From: an uncultured Clostridia bacterium
GTDB lineage: Bacteria; Bacillota; Clostridia; UBA1381
Assembly: GCA_947626075.1 (NCBI GenBank)
Contig: CANQQW010000016.1
Span: forward strand, 1-32,203
Direction: 5' to 3'
Length of the DNA stretch: 32,203 nucleotides
Both the position numbers and the translations under genes were made by a program. Under the pieces are notes generated by a model, which ran no database searches, was not told the origin of the DNA, and saw only the letters and a program-made list of their open reading frames with translations. This document shows, one piece after another, positions 25,723-27,286 of this stretch (positions within the stretch are counted from its first letter, which is position 1; each line of letters starts with the position of its first letter).

Positions 25723-26037
25723 TTACTTTTGAATTACGTCTATTTCAACGCCCGCGGGCAAGTCTATCTTGATTAGCGATTCCATGGTCTTTGCGCCGGG
25801 AACAACTATATCAATCAGTCTTTTGTGAGTTCTTCTTTCAAACTGCTCACGCGAATACTTGTACTTATGAACCGCCCTCAGGATTGTGATAACCTCTTTG
25901 TCGGTCGGAAGCGGAATGGGACCCGATACCTTGGCGCCCGTTCTCTTCGCGATTTCCACGATTTTTTCCGCGCTCTGGTCGAGAACCACGTGGTCATAAG
26001 CCTTAAGCTTGATTCTGATTTTTTGATTTGCTGCCAT
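25723..26037 (-). CDS. rpsJ: 30S ribosomal protein S10
   Basis: [62 protein letters not shown]. Confidence 0.98.
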
Positions 26038-26059: not shown

Positions 26060-26401
26060 TTGTTTTGTTGTAATCTGCACGACAGCGCTAAAGAAAATTG
26101 CACACACCGCCGGGTGTTTCGCGTCACCCTTAAAGAAAACCCGAACATATTCATTATACATTCGGGCAAAGTTAGTCAATTTTCACCGCGCGTTACACAC
26201 AGCGCCGCTTCGCAAGAAGCCGCGTTACGTGCGTGGATAAAACGCGCGAATACTCAACTGCCGCCCGGTTTCATGAATCGGACTCGCTCCGCGGAAAAAC
26301 CGGCTCCGTCGAACCTTTAAAGCTCTTCTGCCGCAACCTCCCGTTTCATCGCGTATCAGTCCTGTTATGCGAGGCGTTTTTCACTCGCATAAAGTCACAA
26401 C
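26060..26401 (-). ncRNA. Candidate structured 5' leader of the S10 operon
   Basis: GC-rich hairpin-rich block in an AT-rich intergenic: TTATGCGAG..CTCGCATAA, GGTTCGACGGAGCC, CGCGTT..AACGCG, GCTTCTTGCGAAGC, ACACC-GCCG-GGTGT / GGGTG..CACCC. Confidence 0.5.
26153..26179 (-). promoter_or_regulatory. Candidate proximal promoter of the S10 operon
   Basis: Minus strand TTGACT-N15-TATAAT. Confidence 0.5.
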
Positions 26402-26407
26402 ATGACT

Positions 26408-26436
26408 ATTATACATGATTTCAAGCCGCTTTTCAA
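26408..26436 (-). promoter_or_regulatory. Candidate distal sigma-A promoter of the S10 operon
   Basis: Minus strand TTGAAA-N17-TATAAT. Confidence 0.7.
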
Positions 26437-26446
26437 GATTTCCCAT

Positions 26447-26500
26447 AAAAAAATTTCATTAAAATTTCTACAAATTTACAGAAATTTTAATGAAATTTTT
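26447..26500. terminator. Perfect 21-bp AT-rich inverted repeat, probable terminator upstream of the S10 promoter
   Basis: AAAAATTTCATTAAAATTTCT-ACAAATTTAC-AGAAATTTTAATGAAATTTTT; on the minus strand the stem ends in a T-run. Confidence 0.7.
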
Positions 26501-26663: not shown

Positions 26664-26879
26664 ATAAACAAAAAATGAAGTCCGCGCCGCGTTGTTTTAT
26701 GCTTAAAATACGCCATTAAACGGGCATTTTCCTTACTTTTCTTTTCAAAAAGCTTTGGAAAATTCAAATGAATAAATAAAAATGAAGCCCGTGCCGCGTT
26801 GTTTTATGCTTAAAACGCGTCCGTAATTTAGAATTTTCTTCGCAATCCTTTTCAAAAAGCTTCCGAAAATTCGAGAGAA
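26664..26879. repeat. Two-copy tandem repeat, period 108 bp, overlapping the 3' end of the DUF4830 gene
   Basis: Units from 26664 and 26772 share AAAATGAAGYCCGYGCCGCGTTGTTTTATGCTTAAAA and TTTTCAAAAAGCTTYSGAAAATTC. Confidence 0.85.
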
Positions 26880-27286
26880 TGCATAAAACCGCTTAAACTC
26901 ACCGTCATAATATCGCCCGCCACGGGCTTGCCATCAATGCATATTACATTCGCCCTGACCTCCTCGCCGACATACACCGGATAATTCTTTACCGTGTACG
27001 TGTACCTGATGCCGCTCATACCCATGTACGGCGTCAGGTCAAGCCCCGCGCGAAGCTGTATTTCGTTATAGTTTTCGTACACCTTGTCAAACGGCTTCGG
27101 TATTGTTATTTCCTCGCTTTCTACGGCTTTCGCGCTCGTTTCCCAACCGTAGCTTTTCAGAAATTCCGCGTTGCGCACGTCCGTCTCGCCGCTCGCGAAC
27201 AGCACAAATACAAGCGTCGTTACTATTATGATTGCCACCGCCGCAAAATACATCATAGCTTTTCTCCCCATCATCTCACCCCGCAA
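26852..27286 (-). CDS. DUF4830 domain-containing membrane-anchored protein
   Basis: N-terminal TM; EFLKSYGWETS, KVYENYNEIQLRAGLDLTPYMGMSGIRYTYTVKNYP, EVRANVICIDGKPVAGDI pattern. Confidence 0.75.
   Translation of the reverse strand: MRGEMMGRKAMMYFAAVAIIIVTTLVFVLFASGETDVRNAEFLKSYGWETSAKAVESEEITIPKPFDKVYENYNEIQLRAGLDLTPYMGMSGIRYTYTVKNYPVYVGEEVRANVICIDGKPVAGDIMTVSLSGFMHSLEFSEAF

Follow-up and report, generated by a model that had tools for sequence, protein, structure and literature searches.

The question raised by this locus is what the structured stretch in front of rpsJ is and how it might act on the ribosomal protein genes behind it. The window, i.e., the whole 32,203-nucleotide stretch of DNA that was analyzed, belongs to a 95-contig assembly of an uncultured Clostridia bacterium. 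The leader lies on the minus strand between a DUF4830 ORF and rpsJ, which is followed by rplC, rplD, rplW, rplB, rpsS, and rplV; this cluster is the S10 operon. A sequence-only reading had described a conserved, structured leader RNA of the rpsJ operon, GC-rich in AT-rich surroundings. This description holds: GC content is about 0.50-0.58 at positions 26150-26399 vs 0.22-0.35 just upstream, and folding made the full leader more stable than 100/100 dinucleotide shuffles (z -2.85). P1 and P2 as drawn by Rfam are absent from its unconstrained minimum-energy fold. The same reading had recognized no Rfam family in the leader, called it uncharacterized, and placed it between two promoters. The features on which our own account relies are as follows.

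26852-27286, DUF4830 ORF
26408-26436, minus strand, predicted distal sigma-70-type promoter TTGAAA-N17-TATAAT, expected start near 26401 (11/12 consensus positions and conservation)
26365-26392, minus strand, 5' hairpin TTATGCGAG/CTCGCATAA, 9 bp, exact (arms 26392-26384 and 26373-26365; pairing in congeners)
26259-26358, minus strand, RF03136 S10-Clostridia r-leader motif, P1 and P2 (cmscan)
26263-26283, minus strand, P2 hairpin GTCCGATT...AAACCGGGC (sequence)
26234-26267, minus strand, candidate antiterminator 5' strand, i.e., the P2 3' strand and following sequence (consensus fold and pairing tests)
26163-26194, minus strand, candidate antiterminator 3' strand, made up of AACGCGCG, TTGACT, and the terminator 5' arm GCCCG (native pairing above swapped or shuffled pairing in the order)
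26139-26167, minus strand, predicted intrinsic terminator hairpin GCCCGAATGTATAATGAATATGTTCGGGT, 12 bp and then a T tract; it holds the TATAAT previously taken for a -10 element
26138-26132, minus strand, terminator T tract, interrupted by one C in this genome
26067-26130, minus strand, conserved post-terminator block (near-invariant in the genus)
26129-26125 and 26116-26112, minus strand, hairpin GGGTG/CACCC in that block (near-invariant in the genus)
26085-26080, minus strand, post-terminator CTGTCG, complementary to CGGCAG at 26263-26258 (sequence)
26050-26044, minus strand, rpsJ ribosome binding site AGGAGGG (sequence)
25723-26037, minus strand, rpsJ, ribosomal protein S10, first gene of the operon (Pfam PF00338, E 5.4e-35)

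The leader belongs to a known self-regulating family, to which it adds one more member. cmscan places RF03136, the S10-Clostridia ribosomal protein leader of Rfam, at 26358-26259 on the minus strand with 40.4 bits vs a gathering threshold of 35.1, and this is the sole match above a curated threshold in the window. The likeness extends to sequence and structure over all 81 model positions (1-81 of 81), and the motif stands where the family is expected, i.e., in the 5' untranslated region of rpsJ and the S10 operon. This genome carries one copy only; the model finds matches in 77/95 genomes of the order and in 108/196 genomes sampled from the class, as well as in the Bacillus subtilis and Lactococcus lactis controls. 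Conserved pairing upstream of rpsJ, on which the sequence-only reading had made its leader depend, was found in relatives. Eckert and Weinberg 2020 (PMC7247131), who cite a 2007 study for the motif, describe an S10 r-leader of Firmicutes with many Clostridia examples. The literature passages considered on the RF03136 family and rpsJ leaders describe no terminator or antiterminator, and those on the curated leader family give no mechanism or proven ligand. We claim no priority for the attenuator proposed below.

Not every part of the Rfam model fits its members equally well. GTC/GGC at the base of P2 is paired in 143/143 leaders, a count that is partly circular as the arm finder favored GTC/GGC. 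The Rfam consensus draws the outer part of P2 as TGTC/GACA, and this pairing is complete in 42/66 leaders of the order, 57/77 outside it, and 0/15 congeners; in all 15 congeners, three of its four pairs are standard and the outermost one is an A-A mismatch, and our leader likewise departs from the consensus at one pair only. Since the curated score is reached and the same outer pair is broken in many members, it is the model rather than membership that is in doubt. The genus differs from RF03136 by an added 5' hairpin and, in one subclade, by a longer P1 loop. An extension of this loop (26330-26305) by about 18 nt is confined to this species and to five or six of its congeners, and it explains the lower RF03136 score of the subclade. 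An additional helix, P0, formed by GACA/TGTC or, in some members of the genus, by GACT/AGTC, was rejected as a feature: 6/15 congeners have no ungapped match, and it competes with P2 for GUC. Paired A/T swaps support it in some lineages, and it is kept as a possibility only.

The predicted distal promoter is supported by conservation. An exact TATAAT occurs at this site in 37/53 scorable leaders of the order, with a TTG hexamer 17 nt upstream in most, and the distance from the -10 element to the RF03136 motif is a near-constant 24-33 nt in the order vs 54-68 nt in this genus. The 5' hairpin accounts for the extra distance. This 9-bp hairpin, already recognized from the sequence, has a fully paired counterpart with compensatory changes in 15/15 congeneric species (6-11 bp; arms picked by eye from the sequences), and its arm sequences vary among TTATGCGAG, TTACGCGGG, TATGTACAT, TTGCGTGAATC, and others. 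Full pairing despite differing sequences argues that it is a real RNA helix; it is a genus-specific insertion that the rest of the order does not have. At the very 5' end, GTTGTGA is complementary to a candidate partner, TTACAAC, before the Shine-Dalgarno sequence; both are invariant in the genus, and their pairing is a possibility. Further upstream, an inverted repeat at 26449-26500 (26-nt arms AAAAATTTCATTAAAATTTCTACAAA and TTTACAGAAATTTTAATGAAATTTTT, 92% complementary, no spacer) leaves about 13 nt between its end and the distal -35 element. A comparable AT-rich dyad stands at the matching place in several congeners, and the repeat may serve as an UP-like element or as a terminator for the neighboring gene.

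The supposed proximal promoter is of a different nature. TTGACT-N15-TATAAT at 26179-26153 can, like the distal pair, be read on the minus strand as described; the string match is exact and occurs in none of 100 window shuffles. If it were active, rpsJ would be driven by two promoters, the distal one yielding the leader RNA and the proximal one a short 5' untranslated region without the regulator, and the B. subtilis cluster is reportedly transcribed from two promoters (a 1997 study cited in PMC3933415). However, its spacer is short (15 nt), it is not among the promoter scan hits, and no conserved second promoter, as expected of a two-promoter ribosomal protein operon, was found. Among 15 aligned congeners, an exact TATAAT at this site is confined to the window's own sequence, where it falls inside the terminator hairpin, and TTGACT is accounted for as a strand of the candidate antiterminator. 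The site is therefore very probably not a promoter, and two promoters for rpsJ appear highly improbable. Its sequence rather belongs to a predicted, conserved intrinsic terminator, falling on its 5' flank and into its hairpin, so that both hexamer pairs of the sequence-only reading stand as strings and its second promoter does not. A strict scan, which required 5 or more closing pairs (3 of them GC), a dG of -8 or lower, and a T-rich tail, detected this terminator in 57/66 leaders of the order, among them 15/15 of those scored in the genus, and in 34/89 leaders outside the order, many class members having no detectable one. It usually lies 80-130 nt before rpsJ. In the alignment, congeners retain the base of the hairpin and vary its middle. 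The upper stem covaries, i.e., its sequence varies and its pairing is kept: exchange of arms between species lowers pairing at pairs 5-9 from 0.80 to 0.60. Terminators were parsed individually in each sequence because MAFFT misaligned the hairpin; consensus folding of that alignment was dropped for the terminator for the same reason. The hairpin at 26167-26139 might instead be a structural helix of the leader that terminates nothing, as its own T tract contains a C and the whole block lies within a larger fold, but the T-rich tail that follows in 57/66 leaders despite changes in hairpin sequence makes this reading quite improbable. With TATAAT placed in a terminator hairpin, the order of elements becomes promoter, sensor, terminator, and rpsJ, and a terminator inside the leader suggests that the operon is switched off by an early stop of transcription.

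Comparison points to a candidate for a competing fold, an antiterminator. In the consensus structure that RNAalifold gives for the genus alignment, the P2 sequence CGGGCG is paired with TGCCCG, which lies at the 5' arm of the terminator, and the pairing continues into GTTA/TGAC and a covarying helix; CGGGC of the P2 3' strand (26267-26263) would thus also serve the antiterminator, and the TTGACT once read as a -35 element falls within its 3' strand. In 44 dereplicated leaders from the order, the strand from P2 onward binds the pre-terminator strand and terminator arm of its own leader better than the matching region of other species (mean -31.6 vs -26.5 kcal/mol, Wilcoxon p=2.9e-6), also when the terminator arm is left out (-22.9 vs -18.7, p=4.1e-6), and in 50 order leaders the native strand exceeds dinucleotide shuffles of itself (-31.1 vs -25.2, p=8.8e-12); these p values are too small because related sequences are not independent. 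Outside the order the outcome is mixed (swap p=0.0056, shuffle p=0.13). The terminator 5' arms of the leaders also pair the P2 strand ACCGGGCG better than do 312 other terminator-like hairpins (p=1.8e-12), a background that comes from a loose scan of the loci analyzed and includes doubtful hairpins. For the window's own strand, 76/500 shuffles are equally good; as this sequence by itself is indistinguishable from shuffles, the antiterminator is proposed from the comparison. The two folds of this RNA differ by less than 2 kcal/mol, and the antiterminator is its optimal fold before the terminator 3' arm exists. In these folding models, the arrangement has the layout of a kinetic switch, and the RNA may switch accordingly.

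Thus, we think it likely that this S10-Clostridia (RF03136) leader of the S10 operon has transcription attenuation as its output. The RNA would begin near 26401 and form P1 and P2. As long as nothing holds these, CGGGC on the 3' side of P2, together with the sequence that follows it, would pair with the pre-terminator stretch and GCCCG, and with this antiterminator formed polymerase would proceed into rpsJ. An excess of an operon-encoded ribosomal protein would hold P1 and P2, the terminator hairpin at 26167-26139 would form, and transcription would end roughly 100 nt short of the rpsJ start codon. Competition of two states in the cell and a ribosomal protein as the signal are what we infer from this layout, and by analogy the putative ligand would be uL4. 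The likeness to the L4 (uL4)-controlled S10 leader of Escherichia coli holds at the level of the model, i.e., a long structured S10-operon leader with a premature intrinsic terminator, as predicted here. In E. coli, the S10 operon is controlled by uL4 at the levels of transcription and translation (PMC10931766). According to PMC3933415, proteomics of Clostridioides difficile does not agree with the uL4 model of E. coli, and the analogy should therefore not be pressed. By description, the leader also resembles the rpsJ motif RLC-47-1, reported in 2024 from three genera of Peptostreptococcaceae (PMC11109978), which is likewise a leader candidate of the rpsJ 5' untranslated region in Clostridia with proposed ribosomal protein autoregulation.

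Control could also be exerted on translation only. The targets of a ribosomal protein would then be a long-range helix and the post-terminator block close to the ribosome binding site, with the terminator serving as a constitutive damper of fixed read-through. Such a helix does covary outside the order, where the terminator often goes undetected: the sequence directly after P2 (e.g., CGACAAGTCACTGTAC) pairs with a block (GTACAGTCACCGCTTGTCG) that lies some 55-75 nt ahead of rpsJ, the helix is retained in class members in which both sides differ (CGACAGGGAATCTGTA with TTTACAGAAGTTCCGCTGTTG), and native pairing exceeds swapped (-16.2 vs -12.3, p=7.6e-9) and shuffled (p=3.4e-10) pairing. The post-terminator block, moreover, is near-invariant in the genus. 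Within the order, the corresponding CGGCAG/CTGTCG is so nearly invariant that covariation cannot assess it, and the swap test does not favor this helix there. What a purely translational control leaves unexplained is the matching of the pre-terminator and P2 strands in the order, and we regard it as unlikely. A second helix in the genus, between pre-terminator GAAAATTG and post-terminator CAATTTTC, is not claimed: the two are complementary in most of the genus, but they hardly vary, and some species carry changes in them (two have CCAATTCT).

Attenuation and translational control might also be combined. On this tentative reading, three partners compete for the strand that ends P2, and only one of them can pair with it at a time: P2 itself, the antiterminator that seizes the terminator 5' arm, and the long-range helix, which would close near the ribosome binding site only after read-through. 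The Clostridia S10 leader would then exceed the 81-position Rfam model, and one ribosomal protein could control first transcription and then translation; we consider this possible, though less probable than not. The terminator and antiterminator fall outside RF03136, and the model ends at the first letters of the long-range helix, pairing TGTC with GACA instead. TGTC/GACA competes with the covarying long-range helix, and the model may need revision and extension; the terminator and antiterminator results suggest that it is too short and contains one partly mis-paired helix. For the attenuation proposed above, a terminator with a comparatively supported antiterminator gives a concrete, testable feedback output to a large ribosomal protein operon of gut Clostridia.

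Mimicry of rRNA by primary sequence was discarded. Conserved words of the leader, compared as primary sequence with the 23S rRNA of three Clostridia (loci read on the given strand only, flanks included), showed no similarity above that of shuffled queries. In the window's own assembly, neither the 16S nor the 23S rRNA gene was found; metagenome-assembled genomes commonly lack rRNA genes. A tandem duplication at 26671-26884 (107 nt, 77% identical) lies in the AT-rich sequence that separates the leader from the DUF4830 ORF, and it overlaps the 3' end of that ORF.
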